NCBI GenBank assembly: GCA_949902595.1
Contig: CATLDC010000010.1
Span: forward strand, 1-64,000
DNA: 64,000 bases
Source: an uncultured Candidatus Melainabacteria bacterium
GTDB taxonomy: Bacteria; Cyanobacteriota; Vampirovibrionia; Gastranaerophilales; Gastranaerophilaceae
Reading direction: 5' to 3'
Shown here piece after piece: positions 42,830 to 52,686 of this stretch. Each line of letters opens with the position of its first letter. The stretch's first letter is position 1. The notes below the pieces were generated by a model. That model did no database searches. It saw nothing but the letters and a program-made list of their open reading frames with translations, and was not told the DNA's origin. The position numbers and the translations under genes are program-made.

Positions 42830-43951
42830 CTACCTCACATAAACTCTTGGCAGACGCACTTTTAGTCTGCATGTAAGTTCATAATTAATAGTATCTAATA
42901 TTTTCGCCCAACTATCAAGCGTCAAATCCTCATCGTCCAAGAGCGTTACCACATCGCCGACATTGGCCTCAACACCGGATAGGTCAAACATCATCTGATC
43001 CATGGTTATGTTTCCGACCTGACGTACTTTTTGCCCGTTTATCTTACCGCAAATCTTGTTGGAAAGGCTTCTTGAAACCCCGTCCGCGTAACCAATCGGT
43101 ATTGTAGCAACTTTTGTCGGCTCTTGAGCGACAAATTTGTGGCAGTAGCTTACGCCTTCGCCGGCTTTTACTTCATGAATATTTGTAATCCTGCCTTTTA
43201 AGCCCATAATCTGCTTAAGTTTTGGTCTGTAGTTGTACTTTGGCGGCAAGTCCGGATAAAGCCCGTAGAGCGAGATTCCGACACGCACCATGTTTGATTT
43301 AAAATTATAAGAGAAGGTTGCAGCAGTGTTCTGGATATGAATCAAGAGCCCTGATGTGTCAATGTTTTCAATAACGCTGTTCCATCTTGAGACCTGTTTT
43401 TCTGTTTCTTCCGGCTCTTCGGCTGCTGCAAGGTGGGTAAACACACCTTCGAATCTCAAGTACTCTGATTTTCTAACCTGTTCAATGAACTCAACTGCGT
43501 CTTCCGAGCGCACCCCGATTCGGTTCATGCCGGTATCAATCTTGACATGTACAATCGGTTTTATTCCTGTTCTTTCAAAAACCTCGCGGCAAACTTTGAG
43601 GTGCTCTTCGTTAAACACAGAAAACGCAATATCATTTCTTGCAGCGGATTCGATTGCCCAAAGCGGGATTGCGCCCACAACAAGAATCGGGCATTTTATT
43701 TTCACATTCCTCAAATCCAAGCCTTCGTCCACAGAAGATACGCCCAACATATCGACACCTGAGGCGAGCATTGTCTGCGCAAGCATTGCAGCACCGTGGC
43801 CGTAGGCGTCAGCTTTAACGATTGCCATGAATTTCTTGTCTTTTGGAATCCCTTTTTTTATTTCAAGAATATTCTGCGCCAGAGACTCAAGATTAATCTC
43901 AACCCACGCATCTTTGTGAATATTTACGTTTGATTGTCTTACGTTTTTCAT
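42830..43951 (-). CDS. alr: alanine racemase
   Basis: Makes D-alanine for peptidoglycan. The 373-residue fold-III PLP enzyme has AIVKADAYGHGA near residues 43-54 with the PLP-binding Lys46, and GEGVSYCHKF near 260 with the second catalytic Tyr. The ATG at 43951 has GAAAGGAT upstream; the longer frame begins inside the terminal repeat of the adjacent DUF559 cassette. Because this ribosome site is only a few bases from the cassette edge, the insertion has left alr translation intact. Confidence 0.95.
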   Translation of the reverse strand: MKNVRQSNVNIHKDAWVEINLESLAQNILEIKKGIPKDKKFMAIVKADAYGHGAAMLAQTMLASGVDMLGVSSVDEGLDLRNVKIKCPILVVGAIPLWAIESAARNDIAFSVFNEEHLKVCREVFERTGIKPIVHVKIDTGMNRIGVRSEDAVEFIEQVRKSEYLRFEGVFTHLAAAEEPEETEKQVSRWNSVIENIDTSGLLIHIQNTAATFSYNFKSNMVRVGISLYGLYPDLPPKYNYRPKLKQIMGLKGRITNIHEVKAGEGVSYCHKFVAQEPTKVATIPIGYADGVSRSLSNKICGKINGQKVRQVGNITMDQMMFDLSGVEANVGDVVTLLDDEDLTLDSWAKILDTINYELTCRLKVRLPRVYVR

Positions 43952-43962
43952 TTTAATCCTTT

Positions 43963-44029
43963 CCCTCTCCATCGGGAGAGGTCGCAGTTGTGCTTGAGCT
44001 TTGCGAAAGCTACAAATGCGGGTGAGGGT
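43963..44029. repeat. left terminal inverted repeat of DUF559 cassette 1
   Basis: Outer hairpin CCCTCTCC-ATC-GGGAGAGG, then TCGCAG, a middle hairpin (AGCTTT-GCG-AAAGCT), then ATGC and GGTGAGGGT. The outer 25 bp (43963-43987) are exactly repeated in inverted form at 44408-44432, and the inner GGTGAGGGT at 44369-44377. The repeat encodes the last eight codons of the nuclease gene. Confidence 0.85.
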
Positions 44030-44363
44030 TAATCCCCTCTTCTAATTTTATTATAACTCCATCAATATTTTCATATATCTCATTGTTCCAAAATCTAATA
44101 ACTTTATATCCTAACCCCTCTAAATATTTGGTTCTTTCAGTATCAGATATAATATTTTCAGGTTCATTATGCTGACCACCATCAATTTCAACAATAATCT
44201 TAGCTTCTTTGCATATAAAATCAACAATATATTTACCTATAGGGTGTTGGCGCTTAAACTTTAAATTATGAAACTGCCTGTTTTTTAAAAGATTCCAGAG
44301 GCGCTTTTCCTGAATTGTTGAGTTTTTTCGAAGTTCACGTGCTAAGATATTTTTTTCGTTCAT
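44010..44363 (-). CDS. DUF559 endonuclease-like protein (cassette 1)
   Basis: A 117-residue DUF559 protein, a Vsr-related PD-(D/E)xK-like nuclease family. Basic helix TIQEKRLWNLLKNRQFHNLKFKRQ (about residues 16-39), then GKYIVDFICKEAKIIVEIDGGQH with catalytic-type Asp near 49 and Glu-x-Asp near 59-61, and YLEGLGYKVIRFWNNEI near 84-100. Its start codon lies just inside the right inverted repeat, whose GGTGAGGGT may act as ribosome site, and its last residues (GINPHPHL) are encoded by the left repeat. It is in the same direction as miaB and alr, so it is probably cotranscribed. Role in element mobility is inference. Confidence 0.88.
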   Translation of the reverse strand: MNEKNILARELRKNSTIQEKRLWNLLKNRQFHNLKFKRQHPIGKYIVDFICKEAKIIVEIDGGQHNEPENIISDTERTKYLEGLGYKVIRFWNNEIYENIDGVIIKLEEGINPHPHL

Positions 44364-44368
44364 GTTTG

Positions 44369-44433
44369 ACCCTCACCAGCATCCGTAACTCACTTACGTT
44401 CGAACGGCTGCGACCTCTCCCGATGGAGAGGGG
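44369..44433. repeat. right terminal inverted repeat of DUF559 cassette 1
   Basis: Inverted partner of 43963-44029: inner ACCCTCACC, middle segment with the palindrome CGTTCGAACG, then CTGCGACCTCTCC and the closing GGAGAGGG. The outer part is identical to the left copy, while the middle is different in sequence but can again form a hairpin. Confidence 0.85.
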
Positions 44434-44439
44434 AAAAAG

Positions 44440-45747
44440 CTATACCATCTCACCATTCAGGTACCAGGTGCGCGCATTTGTTATTTTAACATTTACAAAC
44501 TCGCCTGTAATATCCCTGTCATAAGGAATATGAACAATCTTGTTGTTTCTTGTGCGCCCTGTGATTACACTTTTGCCTTTTCTGATTTCAAACTTCTCAA
44601 CAAGAACTTCAAGCTCGCGCCCCACGTATTTTTTATTGGATGCAAGACAACAAGCGCGGTTGTGCTCGTTCAATCTGGCAAGACGGTCGGTTTTTACATC
44701 CTCATCAATGTATAAATCAACCCACTTTGCTGCAACGGTCTTCTCTCGCGGTGAATAAGCCGCGGTGTTGGAATAATCAAGCTCCAACTCACTCATTGCC
44801 TTCAAAGTATTCTGGAACTGCTCCTCTGTTTCACCCGGGAACCCCGCAATAAAATCGCTTGTAATCGTAACATCCGGAATCCGGCTTCTAAGATTGTCGC
44901 AAATCTTTTTGTAAGTCGCGTAATCATACCTGCGGTTCATTTTCTTTAAAACATAATCATCTCCTGACTGCATCGGGATGTGGAAATACTCGCAAACCTT
45001 GTCCAGCTCGATTACAGTATCAATAAGCTCTTCTGTGATATCGGTTGGGTAAGATGTCACAAATCTGATTCTGAAATTCCCCTCAAGCGCGTTGACTTCC
45101 CGCAAAAGTCTTGAAAGATTCCAGCCTTCAAGGTCTTTGCCGTAAGAATCAACATTCTGCCCGAGAAGCGTAATTTCTTTAAACCCTTCTGAAAGCGCTT
45201 TTTTTGCTTCATTCAGAATGAGTTCAGGCTTTCTGGAACGCTCACGGCCGCGCGTGTACGGCACAATACAGTATGTGCAGAAGTTGTTGCAGCCTTCCAT
45301 AATCGGAATCCACGCATTAACGCTTTTTACACGGTTAATCTGGATGTCGCTTTCTTCGAACGGTTTTTCTTCAACAGAAACAACCCTCTCGCCAGCCTCG
45401 ATTCTTTTTACAAGATTCGGAAGTTCATAAAGCCTTTGAGTGCCCAAAACCAAATCCACGTATGGCGCACGGCGGAATAGGTCTTTGCCTGCCTGCTGTG
45501 CAACGCAGCCGGCAAAAACAATCTTCAAATCAGGCTTGTTCTTTTTCCATTTACCCCAGACCCCGATTGCACTGTATGCCTTGTCTTCTGAAAGCTGTCT
45601 GATTGAGCAGGTGTTGATAATTAGCATGTCAGCTTCTTTCGGCTCCTCTGTCTGGGTGTATCCAAGATGTTCAAGCATTCCGAACATACGTTCTGCGTCA
45701 GATTTGTTCATCTGACAACCAAGTGTTTCTATATATACCTTTTTCAT
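44440..45747 (-). CDS. miaB: tRNA-2-methylthio-N6-dimethylallyladenosine synthase
   Basis: Methylthiolates i6A37 in tRNAs reading UNN codons. The 435-residue protein has the UPF0004 domain with cluster Cys residues at 11 (LGCQMN), about 47 (NTCSIRQ) and about 81 (AGCVAQ), the radical SAM motif GCNNFCTYCIVPYTRGRERSR near residues 152-172, and a C-terminal TRAM domain ending NARTWYLNGEMV. AAGGGA precedes the ATG. Part of the operon sigma-gcvPB-miaB-(cassette)-alr-tonB-like. Confidence 0.96.
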   Translation of the reverse strand: MKKVYIETLGCQMNKSDAERMFGMLEHLGYTQTEEPKEADMLIINTCSIRQLSEDKAYSAIGVWGKWKKNKPDLKIVFAGCVAQQAGKDLFRRAPYVDLVLGTQRLYELPNLVKRIEAGERVVSVEEKPFEESDIQINRVKSVNAWIPIMEGCNNFCTYCIVPYTRGRERSRKPELILNEAKKALSEGFKEITLLGQNVDSYGKDLEGWNLSRLLREVNALEGNFRIRFVTSYPTDITEELIDTVIELDKVCEYFHIPMQSGDDYVLKKMNRRYDYATYKKICDNLRSRIPDVTITSDFIAGFPGETEEQFQNTLKAMSELELDYSNTAAYSPREKTVAAKWVDLYIDEDVKTDRLARLNEHNRACCLASNKKYVGRELEVLVEKFEIRKGKSVITGRTRNNKIVHIPYDRDITGEFVNVKITNARTWYLNGEMV

Positions 45748-48392: not shown

Positions 48393-50909
48393 ATGCCATT
48401 AGATAACTTGGAACAAGAAAAAGATAATAAAGACAAAAAGAAAGTTTTTCTAACAATACACGGTCACTTTTACCAGCCACCAAGAGAAAACCCGTGGCTG
48501 GAAGCAATCGAGCAGCAGGACAGCGCTCTGCCGTTCCACGACTGGAACGAGAGGATTAATGCAGAGTGCTACAACCCGAACTCTGTTTCAAAAATCGTGG
48601 ATTCGAAAAACCAGATTCTCAACGTTGTAAACAACTACGAGTACATCAGCTACAACTTTGGCCCGACTCTTCTTTCGTGGATGGAAGAGTTTGCGCCGAT
48701 GGCTTACGAGCGCGTAATCAAAGCGGACATTAATTCAAGAAGAATGCACTCCGGCCACGGAAACGCGATTGCGCAGGTTTACAACCACATGATTATGCCG
48801 CTTGCAAACGAAAGAGACAAGCAAACACAGGTAAAATGGGGGGTAAAAGACTTTGAATACCGTTTTGGCAGAAAGCCGGAAGGTATCTGGCTCGCTGAAA
48901 CAGCGGTCGATGATGACACACTCCGAGTTCTTGTAGAAAACGATATAAAATTCACCATTCTTTCACCTTATCAGGCTCAAAGAATCAGAAAAGAGGGTGA
49001 AAGCACATGGCAGGACGTAAGCTGGGGCAACATTGACCCTGCGCGTTCTTACAGGTATTACATAAAATCAGCACCCGGAAAATATATTGACCTGTTCTTC
49101 TATGACGGCGCAATTTCACGTTCTGTTGCTTTTGACGAGCTGCTTACAGACGGAAACAAGTTTGTAAACCGACTCAAAGACGGGGTTTCTGATGCCAGAA
49201 ATTACAACCAGCTTGTAAACATTGCAACTGACGGCGAAAGCTACGGTCACCACACCAAGTTCGGTGACATGGCGCTTGCTTATGCGCTCAAGCTCAAGGT
49301 CAAAGACGCAGGGTTTATTATCACGAACTACGCAGAATACCTCGACAAGTACAGAAGCGACTGGGAGGTTGAAATCAAGCCGGTTTCATCATGGAGCTGT
49401 TTCCACGGTGTAGGACGCTGGTGCGATGATTGCGGTTGTTCAACAGGCGGGCATCCGGGTTGGAATCAGAAATGGAGAAAGCCGCTTAGAAACGCGCTTG
49501 ACTTCTTAAGAGACGAAACGATTACGATTTACAACAAGCATGCAAAAAAATACTTCAAGAATCCGCAGGATGCTCGAGACAACTACATCAGCGTCATTCT
49601 GGACAGAAGCGACATGAGTGTTAAGAGTTTTCAGGACGAATATTTCCTTCCTGATTTGGACGAAGAACAAAGAGTGAAAGCAATGGAGCTTCTTGAAATC
49701 CAAAGACAGGCTATGCTTATGTACACAAGCTGCGGCTGGTTCTTCTCTGAAATATCAGGAATTGAGACCGTACAGATTATGAAATACGCTGCAAGGGTTA
49801 TGCAGCTTGCAAAATCGTTCCTTAAGAAGGATTTGGAAACACCGTTTTTGGAAATCCTCAAGGAAGCAAAGAGCAACATTCCTGAGTTTGGCACCGGTAA
49901 AGATGTGTTTGAGAAGTTTGTAAAACCTTCTGTTATCACGCCGAAGCAGATAGTAAGTTTGTGGGCAATATCTTCGCTATACGCTGACATTGAGGACGAA
50001 GAGAGCGTTTATTGTTACAAAATCAAAAAGCGTTCTTACAAGCGGGTTCAAAAAGGTAATTCGCAATTGGTTATCGGACATATTGAGGTTGAATCAAAGG
50101 TCACGCTCGAAAAATCTAACATGATTTTTGCACTGCTCCAATTCTCCGGCGGAGATTTCCACTGCGCTATTAAAGAGTATTCGGAAAACTTCAGCGACAT
50201 ACAAAAAGAACTCATCAGGACTTATCTTGTATCACCGCTTACCGAGATTATCAGGCACATTGACAATTATTTTGGCAAAGAGTACTTCACGCTCAAGGAT
50301 ATATTTATTGAGGAAAGGCGGAAGATTCTTCAAACAATGCTCAAGGGCAAGTTGCAAATCTTTGCCAACACTTATGAATCAATGTACAACGAGGGCAAGG
50401 GTTCGATTTACCAGATGCAGACGCTCGGGTTGGAGATTCCGAAGGAGTTCAAGATTTCTGCGCAGTATGTTCTTACAAAGCAGTTCAACGATTTGTTTGT
50501 GGATTCGCGCGGATTTTTGGATTCGGATATAACCCAGCAGGCTTCTGATATCAATTTTGAGGCGAAGAGAATCGGGATTGAGATAGACAAGACTCCGACT
50601 TCAAGGATTTTCAGTAAGAAGATTGCGCAAAACATCAACAGGCTTTCTTATGCGCTTGATATTCAGCAGGTTGAGGCGACTTTAGAGCTTCTTGACTGTA
50701 TTTCGAAGCTGGAAATCAAGGTTGACATTGCAGAGGCGCAGAACTATTATTTCTCAAAGATTGTGACGAATATTGAGGAATTGATTCAGCGAATCACCTG
50801 TCAGGCTGACAGAGACTTGCTTGTGATGTTGTTTGAAATCGGCGAGAATCTGAACATCAACATGGATTATTACAAGCAGATGTTCGACAGGGCGCTGGTT
50901 AGAGGTTAG
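48393..50909 (+). CDS. GH57 family glycoside hydrolase with DUF3536 domain
   Basis: An 838-residue cytosolic protein. The GH57 catalytic part (residues about 15-330) has HGHFYQPPRENPW at 23-35, EGIWLAETAVD near 160-170 with the likely nucleophile Glu, and NIATDGESYGHH near 270-281 with the likely acid/base Asp; a DUF3536 domain fills most of the rest, with WSCFHGVGRWCDDCGCSTGG near 338-357. Such proteins are common in cyanobacteria and relatives and are thought to act on alpha-glucans, but the product is unproven. It follows the exported protein by 2 nt. Confidence 0.9.
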   Translation: MPLDNLEQEKDNKDKKKVFLTIHGHFYQPPRENPWLEAIEQQDSALPFHDWNERINAECYNPNSVSKIVDSKNQILNVVNNYEYISYNFGPTLLSWMEEFAPMAYERVIKADINSRRMHSGHGNAIAQVYNHMIMPLANERDKQTQVKWGVKDFEYRFGRKPEGIWLAETAVDDDTLRVLVENDIKFTILSPYQAQRIRKEGESTWQDVSWGNIDPARSYRYYIKSAPGKYIDLFFYDGAISRSVAFDELLTDGNKFVNRLKDGVSDARNYNQLVNIATDGESYGHHTKFGDMALAYALKLKVKDAGFIITNYAEYLDKYRSDWEVEIKPVSSWSCFHGVGRWCDDCGCSTGGHPGWNQKWRKPLRNALDFLRDETITIYNKHAKKYFKNPQDARDNYISVILDRSDMSVKSFQDEYFLPDLDEEQRVKAMELLEIQRQAMLMYTSCGWFFSEISGIETVQIMKYAARVMQLAKSFLKKDLETPFLEILKEAKSNIPEFGTGKDVFEKFVKPSVITPKQIVSLWAISSLYADIEDEESVYCYKIKKRSYKRVQKGNSQLVIGHIEVESKVTLEKSNMIFALLQFSGGDFHCAIKEYSENFSDIQKELIRTYLVSPLTEIIRHIDNYFGKEYFTLKDIFIEERRKILQTMLKGKLQIFANTYESMYNEGKGSIYQMQTLGLEIPKEFKISAQYVLTKQFNDLFVDSRGFLDSDITQQASDINFEAKRIGIEIDKTPTSRIFSKKIAQNINRLSYALDIQQVEATLELLDCISKLEIKVDIAEAQNYYFSKIVTNIEELIQRITCQADRDLLVMLFEIGENLNINMDYYKQMFDRALVRG

Positions 50910-50946: not shown

Positions 50947-50957
50947 TACGTTGTGTA

Positions 50958-51015
50958 GCGCGTATGTCCCTTCTCCCCTGTGTGGGAGAAGGTGGGCGGA
51001 GCCCGGATGAGGGGA
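50958..51015. repeat. left terminal inverted repeat of DUF559 cassette 2
   Basis: 58 bp. Outer 37 bp (50958-50994) contain CCCTTCTCCC-CTGTGT-GGGAGAAGG and recur exactly inverted at 51419-51455. The middle is GGGC-GGA-GCCC here but GCCC-GGA-GGGC in the other repeat. The inner GGATGAGGGGA is again shared. Confidence 0.9.
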
Positions 51016-51043
51016 GCAATCGTTTTCATGCTAAAATTTAATA

Positions 51044-51391
51044 ATGGAACACCTCAAAAAATTTGCAAAAACGCTTAGAAAAGAGCAAACTCGTCCAGAA
51101 CAAATCATGTGGCACATACTACGTGAACGCCGGTTTTTCGGGCTTAAATTTCGCCGTCAGGTTCCGCTTAATAAATATATTGCAGACTTTGCCTGTTTTG
51201 AAAAGAAAGTAATCATTGAGCTAGACGGCAGAGAACATCTAGAGGAAGACGGTATTATCAAAGACAAAATCAGAACCGAGTATTTGGAGGATATTGGGTT
51301 CCGGGTTATTAGGTTTTATAATACGGATGTTCTGAATCATCTGGAAATTGTTTTGGAATTTTTGTATAGAGAATTGATTTCAGGGGAGTGA
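51044..51391 (+). CDS. DUF559 endonuclease-like protein (cassette 2)
   Basis: A 115-residue DUF559 protein, homologous to but clearly different from the one at 44010-44363. TRPEQIMWHILRERRFFGLKFRRQ (residues 16-39), NKYIADFACFEKKVIIELDGREH with the catalytic-type Asp and Glu-x-Asp (43-65), and YLEDIGFRVIRFYNTDVLNH (79-98). No strong ribosome site is close to the ATG; GAGGGGAG of the repeat lies about 30 nt upstream. A Vsr-like nick or cut activity is the family expectation; role in mobility is inferred. Confidence 0.88.
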   Translation: MEHLKKFAKTLRKEQTRPEQIMWHILRERRFFGLKFRRQVPLNKYIADFACFEKKVIIELDGREHLEEDGIIKDKIRTEYLEDIGFRVIRFYNTDVLNHLEIVLEFLYRELISGE

Positions 51392-51397
51392 AATTGT

Positions 51398-51455
51398 TCC
51401 CCTCATCCGCCCTCCGGGCACCTTCTCCCACACAGGGGAGAAGGGACATACGCGC
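51398..51455. repeat. right terminal inverted repeat of DUF559 cassette 2
   Basis: Inverted partner of 50958-51015, equal in length. It begins 6 nt after the nuclease stop codon. Confidence 0.9.
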
Positions 51456-51459
51456 TTAC

Positions 51460-52686
51460 TTATAAGTATTTCACCCCTACAAGCTCATCCGGCATAAACT
51501 GCTGCTCCACATCCGGCGCAGCATGCGTATAAACATAGCCCTCACCAAACCCGTATTTCTTCGCGTCCTTGTAATGCGCGTCCCTCAAATGCATCGGAGG
51601 CGGAAAATCCTTTCCGTGTTCAATATCCGAAAGCGCCTTATCAATCGCCATTATTACCTTGTTCGACTTAGGCGCGTTCGCAACATAAACAACTGCATTG
51701 GCAAGCGGAATCCTGCCTTCCGGAAGTCCAATTATCTCAACCGCGCGGTAAGCGTTTACTGCGATATTCATCGCATTTGGATCAGCAAGCCCCACATCTT
51801 CTGCCGCGCAAACAATCAGGCGCCTTGCAATAAATCTCGGGTCTTCGCCGGCCTCTATCATTTTTGCAAGGTAATAAATCGCAGCATTCGCATCAGACCC
51901 GCGCAAGCTTTTCTGGAACGCGGAAGCGCAGTCGTAGTGTTCCTGTGTTGAATATCGGGTATTCCTTTTCTGTGTAATACTTTCAAGAATATCGACGCTC
52001 AAAAGTCTTGTGTCATTTGAAAAATTGCTTGCAAAGTAAGAATTTTCAACAAGGTTCAAAGCGCAGCGCGCGTCTCCGCGAGCGTTATTAACAATAAACT
52101 TCGTCACCTCTTCGTCGTACTGAATCGGCTGGTAATTCTTCTCCAGATACTCAAACCCGCGATTAACAATCTTTTCCATGCTTACATCATTAATCGGATT
52201 CAACCTTATCACCTGCACCCTTGAAAGCAGCGCCGGAACAACCTGAAACGAAGGATTCTCCGTCGTAGAGCCGATGAGAAACACTGTCCCGTTTTCCACA
52301 TGAGGTAAAAGTGCATCCTGCTGGGTTTTTGAGTATCTGTGGATTTCATCTATAAACAAAATCGTCTTCTGACCGCTTCTCAGAGCCTGTCTTGCCTGTT
52401 CCACAGTCTCTTTAATTTCTTTTATGCCGGAAGTAACAGCAGACAGTTCAATAAACTGCGCATTAACCTTTGTTGCAATAAGTCTTGCAAGAGTTGTTTT
52501 TCCGCAACCCGGGGTTCCCCACAATATCAAAGAAAACAACCTTTGTGTTTTTAAAAGATTCAAAAGCGGAGAATTGGGCGCAACAACATTTGACTGACCC
52601 AGAAAATCATCCAATGTCTTAGGTCTTAGTATCTCCGCAAGCGGAGTCTGTTTATTTGCTTCTTCCAGTTGTGTGAATAAATCCAT
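51460..52686 (-). CDS. rarA: replication-associated recombination protein A
   Basis: AAA+ ATPase of the RarA/MgsA family acting at stalled forks. The 408-residue protein has LRPKTLDDFLGQ at 20-31, Walker A GTPGCGKTT at 57-65, Walker B TILFIDEIHR near 110, FLIGSTTENPSF near 131 and the C-terminal tetramerisation region with SLRGSDANAAIYYLAKMIEAGEDPRFIARRL near 258-288. An extended -10 (TGCTAGAAT) ends 6 nt before the ATG without a ribosome site, so it is likely leaderless. Confidence 0.95.
   Translation of the reverse strand: MDLFTQLEEANKQTPLAEILRPKTLDDFLGQSNVVAPNSPLLNLLKTQRLFSLILWGTPGCGKTTLARLIATKVNAQFIELSAVTSGIKEIKETVEQARQALRSGQKTILFIDEIHRYSKTQQDALLPHVENGTVFLIGSTTENPSFQVVPALLSRVQVIRLNPINDVSMEKIVNRGFEYLEKNYQPIQYDEEVTKFIVNNARGDARCALNLVENSYFASNFSNDTRLLSVDILESITQKRNTRYSTQEHYDCASAFQKSLRGSDANAAIYYLAKMIEAGEDPRFIARRLIVCAAEDVGLADPNAMNIAVNAYRAVEIIGLPEGRIPLANAVVYVANAPKSNKVIMAIDKALSDIEHGKDFPPPMHLRDAHYKDAKKYGFGEGYVYTHAAPDVEQQFMPDELVGVKYL

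Follow-up and report, generated by a model that had tools for sequence, protein, structure and literature searches.

The window, by which we mean the whole 64,000-nucleotide stretch of DNA analyzed here, raises the question of whether a compact block that carries a single nuclease gene between inverted repeats can be a mobile element and, if so, what moves it. The 498-bp block singled out in a preliminary description of this DNA is real: its one open reading frame (51044..51391, plus strand, 115 aa, PF04480) matches Pfam DUF559 with an E-value of 2e-35, and nothing but this gene lies between the arms, so that the block is free of a transposase, as had been stated. The convergent neighbors, which we take from that description and from sequence recognition to be a DUF3536/GH57 gene, ending at 50909, and rarA, with its stop codon at 51460, are indeed undisrupted. 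The inverted ends are likewise present and identical over their outer ~38 nt, but each arm measures 64 nt and not 58 bp. The left arm (50957..51020, plus strand) comprises a stem (50969-50992), a mini-hairpin GGGC-GGA-GCCC (50994-51004) and an inward-pointing, G-rich mirror tail GGATGAGGGG (51005-51014, plus strand), and ends in GCAAT; the right arm (51393..51456, minus strand) is an inverted copy of it, also with an inward tail, the two arms being 92% complementary and separated by 372 nt. Two copies of the hairpin core, CCTTCTCCC-N6-GGGAGAAGG, are present in the 64 kb as against 0.00 expected (100 shuffles, even with 3 mismatches allowed), and a chance origin of the arms is ruled out by these shuffles and by the control positions considered below.

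Mobility, which had at first been inferred from the repeats and the gene, is borne out by dispersed repeat copies and by orthologous empty sites, both for solo arms and for one full DUF559 element. A block kept at the same site in all relatives, with no copies elsewhere, is clearly not what is seen, and an empty allele was sought at the GH57-DUF3536/rarA site of the block itself but none was found. One relative, G023 (~97% DNA-identical in the flanks, assembly 83% complete), shares this site; there the element is present and its gene is inverted between unmoved arms, as expected from recombination between inverted repeats. The other relatives, most of those compared being metagenome-assembled genomes, have different neighbors at this site, synteny differing within the genus.

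The full element with an empty site lies elsewhere in the window, at ~43950-44445; it is a divergent second DUF559 element, which the preliminary description had missed. It is a ~492-bp insertion (43950..44445) at the point where the stop codon of miaB and the start codon of alr overlap (ATGA). Its left arm (43963..44028, plus strand) consists of a hairpin CCCTCTCC-ATC-GGGAGAGG, an extra stem-loop and a tail GGGTGAGGG, and is followed by the DUF559 gene (44010..44363, minus strand, 117 aa) and the right arm (44370..44433, minus strand). Both host genes are intact, miaB (44440..45747, minus strand) having its stop codon TAG and alr, for alanine racemase (42830..43951, minus strand), its start codon at the insertion edge. 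G023 lacks this element and reads TTACGTTTTTC|ATACCATC uninterrupted (L277), with miaB and alr overlapping by ATGA, and the two genes are directly joined in 14 of 30 genus members. This junction is occupied by other DUF559 elements in G018 and G029, by a fragment of DUF559 in G002 and by solo hairpins in G024, G008 and G016. G023 likewise lacks a third DUF559 element (contig C1, 11518). The DUF559 gene with its two arms is a mobile unit. Where G000 has the third element, contig C43 of G023 (L283) holds another insert with an AbrB/MazE-like small open reading frame, and this place may be an insertion hotspot.

The arm by itself is a mobile unit as well. Clean empty sites are found in G023 for the solo repeats L086, L205, L217, L225, L226 and L227, with L205 representing one complete arm of the 50957-51456 subfamily (GTAA...ACAAT). 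The repeat is in place in G023 at L208, L209, L212, L213 and L215 and, as judged by gap size, L220, L223 and L228 are common to both genomes, while more distant genus members are devoid of it at L086, L206, L208-L211 and L213. L210 was rejected as a clean empty site, since G023 retains a partly deleted copy, and target replacement is involved at L206 and L219. The base pairs common to the junctions are AT (2 bp) for the second element, AAT (3 bp) for L086 and 9 bp for L225; target duplication is inconsistent, with 9 bp at one site only and none clear at the other sites.

Across the genome, about ten further copies of the 50957-51456 arm subfamily, including degenerate ones, were detected, and the repeat pattern has 36 matches, 34 of them outside the first element as solo repeats of the same motif class; the preliminary description had not registered these further copies. 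Solo repeats also occur in coding sequence, for example in the lipA-like L219 (a gene named from motifs). A single-protein DUF559 query against the genome contigs recovered only 3 loci. Longer repeats at L203, L204, L221 and L229 are bounded on either side by triplex-type motifs, share the inner sequence GAGCGACTTTAGC...CCTTGCGCAGAAGG, and are perhaps a reduced composite element.

Read from the outside to the inside, the 50957-51456 arms begin with a short leader, which is followed by the 9-bp C/G hairpin, the mini-hairpin as spacer, the G-rich tail and, at the inner end, [A/G]CAAT. Other DUF559 genes, in relatives and in one Omnitrophota and one Deltaproteobacteria genome, are accompanied by arms built alike, for example CCCTCTCC-loop-GGAGAGGG-N3-GGGTGAGGGG. 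The tail mirrors the G arm of the hairpin, and its two variable positions covary with those of the stem (114 distinct elements, related copies included; Fisher p 9e-17 and 2e-18): stem CT goes with tail GGGTGAGG, CC with GGGTGGGG, TC with GGATGGGG and TT with GGATGAGG, all four combinations being present. Within the 50957-51456 subfamily, those copies in which G-C replaces C-G as the outer stem pair have T in place of G in the tail. The T*C-G triad belongs to the purine-motif triplex code, and the change in the tail matches this triad, so that three strands and not two are kept matched. Judged from this covariation, the matched third strand supports a triplex-like form as the one that is recognized, and such a triplex may form in vivo; fold modeling of the arms covered hairpins only. 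The similarity of the arms tracks that of the proteins (Mantel r 0.37, p 0.001), a signal that may reflect simple co-inheritance.

The repeat is a variant of a published motif, a relationship that the preliminary description did not bring up. Repeats of the BoxC/PIT/TM class have been known since the 1990s and have been connected with genome instability (PMC4666352). Their consensus, named BoxC, then PIT, then TMECO, is 5'-CCCTCNCCCN3-6GGGNGAGGGN3GGGNGAGGG, with 3,610 copies in 262 proteobacterial genomes, and the authors explicitly found no transposase or integrase remnants near TMECO sites (PMC4666352). The likeness extends to the order of a C-rich stem, short loop, G-rich stem, spacer and G-rich mirror tail, and to the occurrence of solo copies and tail-inward inverted pairs that are dispersed and mostly intergenic. 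The 50957-51456 arm differs in its 12-nt, hairpin-forming second loop beside the stem CCTTCTCCC, and fits the BoxC/PIT/TM pattern only when such a loop is allowed. A link between DUF559 and these repeats was not found in the literature (open-licence PMC papers; search terms including DUF559 and inverted repeat).

The protein encoded between the arms scores 121 bits against PF04480, for which the curated cut-off is 20.6. Invariant in the DUF559 alignment are R12, E19, W23, Q39, F49, E59, D61, G62, H65, D74, R77 and R90; these invariant residues, which include E59-x-D61-G62, are EDxHD-like. A structure model (pLDDT 90.7) aligns with the DUF559 structure 3hrl (Z 16.1, rmsd 1.1, 93 aligned), the I-Bth0305I homing endonuclease (Z 11.7, rmsd 3.2, 95 aligned), Vsr (Z 10.2, rmsd 2.6, 100 aligned) and TnsA (Z 6.9, rmsd 3.4, 100 aligned), and the profile match of DUF559 to I-Bth0305I has an E-value of 2e-6. 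The model points to a predicted nuclease of the Vsr/EDxHD type. Similarly, YcjD has been placed in the PD-(D/E)XK group next to Vsr (PMC1189080) and one DUF559 gene has been termed EDxHD (PMC9403480), and in Legionella three repeated segments that contain a transposase and a DUF559 gene are reported to be recombination hotspots (PMC12308824). Between the gene at 51044-51391 and its same-site orthologue in G023, pN/pS is 0.13, and the protein is thus maintained by purifying selection.

Taken together, the block is probably a small autonomous selfish mobile element, composed of a DUF559 nuclease gene and ends of the BoxC/PIT/TM class, with the solo arms as its non-autonomous units. In the mechanism that we propose, an arm that becomes single-stranded or extruded, on the lagging strand or as a cruciform, would fold into a hairpin or, through folding back of the mirror G tail, into a purine-motif triplex. 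DUF559 would then recognize the folded arm and nick at its edge, and host repair would attach the freed end to a target with a break or nick, via 0-3 nt of microhomology. We know of no strand joining by PD-(D/E)XK nucleases, and a partner, either a host ligase or host repair, must therefore be assumed. Targets tolerated by selection would be gene junctions (ATGA, TAATG), 5' leaders and in-frame positions within genes, the last because the arms have stop-free frames. A report of nuclease activity on the repeat was not found in open-licence PMC papers.

In-frame positions are occupied by more than solo arms. In several relatives a whole DUF559 element lies within one long reading frame: in L127, and also in L129, L131 and L146, PriA domains flank DUF559 on both sides, with the insertion immediately preceding the Walker A motif, and further elements of this kind are found in HydF (L058), PrmA (L042), the IspE-like GHMP kinases L124 (two insertions, in the kinase gene of G091), L136 and L151, the radical SAM protein L128 and the M14-like L132 and L147. 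The extra stretch amounts to ~140 residues relative to solved PriA and ~190 relative to solved HydF, and several genera have an insertion at one and the same position of PriA. Pfam detected no splicing or intein domain in the in-frame insertions. Translated in frame, the arms (among L127, L129, L131, L146, L042, L058 and L124) give peptides like NPSPHPSPAGGEG and PLPLRERVGVRG.

Such insertions at conserved positions of PriA, HydF, IspE and PrmA, together with the shared place in PriA in several genera, the repeated targeting of the miaB-alr junction and the fact that I-Bth0305I and Vsr are the nearest characterized folds, are what would be expected if DUF559 were a homing endonuclease that cuts allelic empty sites, host recombination then copying the element by gene conversion between strains and not by transposition. 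As the full account this is doubtful, as copies and solo arms sit at many non-homologous sites, for which reason homing alone is insufficient to seed them, and solo arms carry no nuclease gene. Homing may nevertheless act in addition to the movement of the selfish element at repeatedly occupied places such as PriA and miaB-alr.

The association of DUF559 with the repeat is old and wide. Inverted arms (within 250 bp of the DUF559 gene, score >=35) are found at 62 of 95 DUF559 genes, whereas for control positions displaced within those loci the count is 2 of 351; clear arms are missing from one third of the genes. Of 92 phylum genomes with a good DUF559 match, 72 contain the TM repeat (mean 16.3 copies); of the 102 that lack such a match, 26 do (mean 1.9), a contrast (Fisher 8e-14, 194 genomes) in which the counts ignore phylogeny. 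Within the window's family the respective figures, again with counts that ignore phylogeny, are 35/40 and 9/45 (p 2e-10), and the contrast becomes weaker, 17/40 and 9/45 (p 0.02), after two arms for each DUF559 gene have been deducted from the counts. A backward-pattern control gave zero almost everywhere. Among the matches listed, each checked tail-inward pair 250-600 bp apart brackets a DUF559 match (G002, G008, G019, G022). The preliminary description had proposed a search for other DUF559 genes flanked by hairpins, and the same kind of ends does recur in other phyla, such arms being known now from Cyanobacteriota, Pseudomonadota, Deinococcota and Omnitrophota, including plasmids of Sphingomonas, Deinococcus and Sinorhizobium, with one-sided arms in Klebsiella, Azospirillum and Lelliottia. 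In Deinococcus plasmids (L319, L324), DUF559 elements occupy two different junctions within one and the same hpa operon. Phage records contain only two DUF559 relatives of the 51044-51391 protein, and phages are thus no obvious vehicle. More than 2 TM copies without a good DUF559 match occur in 16 of 194 genomes; repeat-rich cases are G026, G041, G083, G100, G105 and G209, which may hold orphan repeat populations or have lost their nucleases.

These repeat-rich genomes also agree with the idea that the arms owe their movement to factors acting in trans, either an unrelated transposase or the replication and repair of the host, and that DUF559 is a passenger which was caught between two arms and kept, as do the lack of a known strand-joining activity in such nucleases and the decay of E. 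coli repeats via internal deletion. A passenger role is unlikely given that the same gene family lies between such arms in several phyla, that the checked tail-inward pairs among the matches listed all bracket DUF559, that the overall association is strong, that the gene is under purifying selection and that the Y1 transposase is missing from the genome. That DUF559 is instead a host repair or defense nuclease of the VSP type, with hairpins that are ordinary terminators or regulators, is highly improbable, for although an interaction with cytosine methylation is reported for VsrA, a DUF559 protein of Caulobacter (PMC12907096), a function of the hairpins as terminators or regulators only is contradicted by the empty sites and dispersed copies, and the gene inversion between arms, the arm length of 64-70 nt, the two hpa junctions and the finding that PIT elements have neither promoter nor terminator activity (PMC4666352) speak against it as well.

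With the autonomous element as the preferred reading, DUF559 elements are the likely origin of the BoxC/PIT/triplex-motif repeats, those of E. coli included. The DUF559 protein of E. coli K-12 is encoded by ycjD (L062:3205-3430), which is adjoined by TMECO copy no. 9 (Holder 2015) and overlapped at its 3' end by a degenerate second triplex copy. About half of 5,426 genomes have the triplex pair that lies between fepB and entC in E. coli (L193, L196), and the alternative allele is 186 bp shorter. This pair and those at alx-sstT and ygfF-gcvP were rejected as proof of insertion, as they are polymorphic mostly by internal deletion and have no outgroup polarity.

Several known systems resemble the element in part. 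As in REP/RAYT (TnpA-REP) systems, a gene lies between inverted palindromes that are also numerous as solo copies, insertions occur in and near genes, and target duplications are few or absent; it differs in its PD-(D/E)XK/Vsr-like nuclease in place of a Y1 HUH enzyme, and in having a third-strand tail and no GTAG/CGTC tag. A RAYT-borne REP was rejected, as the genome has no Y1/RAYT transposase (PF01797). With I-Bth0305I and the EDxHD homing endonucleases it shares the catalytic fold, EDxHD-like invariant residues and selfish spread, but it has mobile inverted arms and non-homologous insertion sites, and appears to lack an intron, intein or NUMOD. Palindromic repeats in frame within host proteins are likewise known as Rickettsia palindromic elements and coding REPs, whereas here the complete element, including the nuclease, can be in frame. 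As in IS elements and MITEs, there are inverted ends and both autonomous and reduced copies, but no DDE, Y1, serine or tyrosine recombinase. We give an even chance to the more far-reaching proposal that the element represents a new class of transposable element, in which a single Vsr/EDxHD-type nuclease and triplex-forming ends achieve non-homologous insertion without a known transposase or integrase, also in frame inside essential proteins, and which is the source of BoxC/PIT/TM repeats across phyla, ycjD being its degenerate relic in E. coli.

The pairing with DUF559 makes the origin of the BoxC/PIT/TM repeats directly testable, even in E. coli K-12. Should DUF559 itself be what moves the element, transposition without a recombinase would be the work of a restriction-like enzyme, and the in-frame insertion of whole elements in PriA, HydF, PrmA and IspE would amount to an intein-like lifestyle without splicing. 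If this is true, many proteins annotated as "endonuclease domain-containing" would gain a role.
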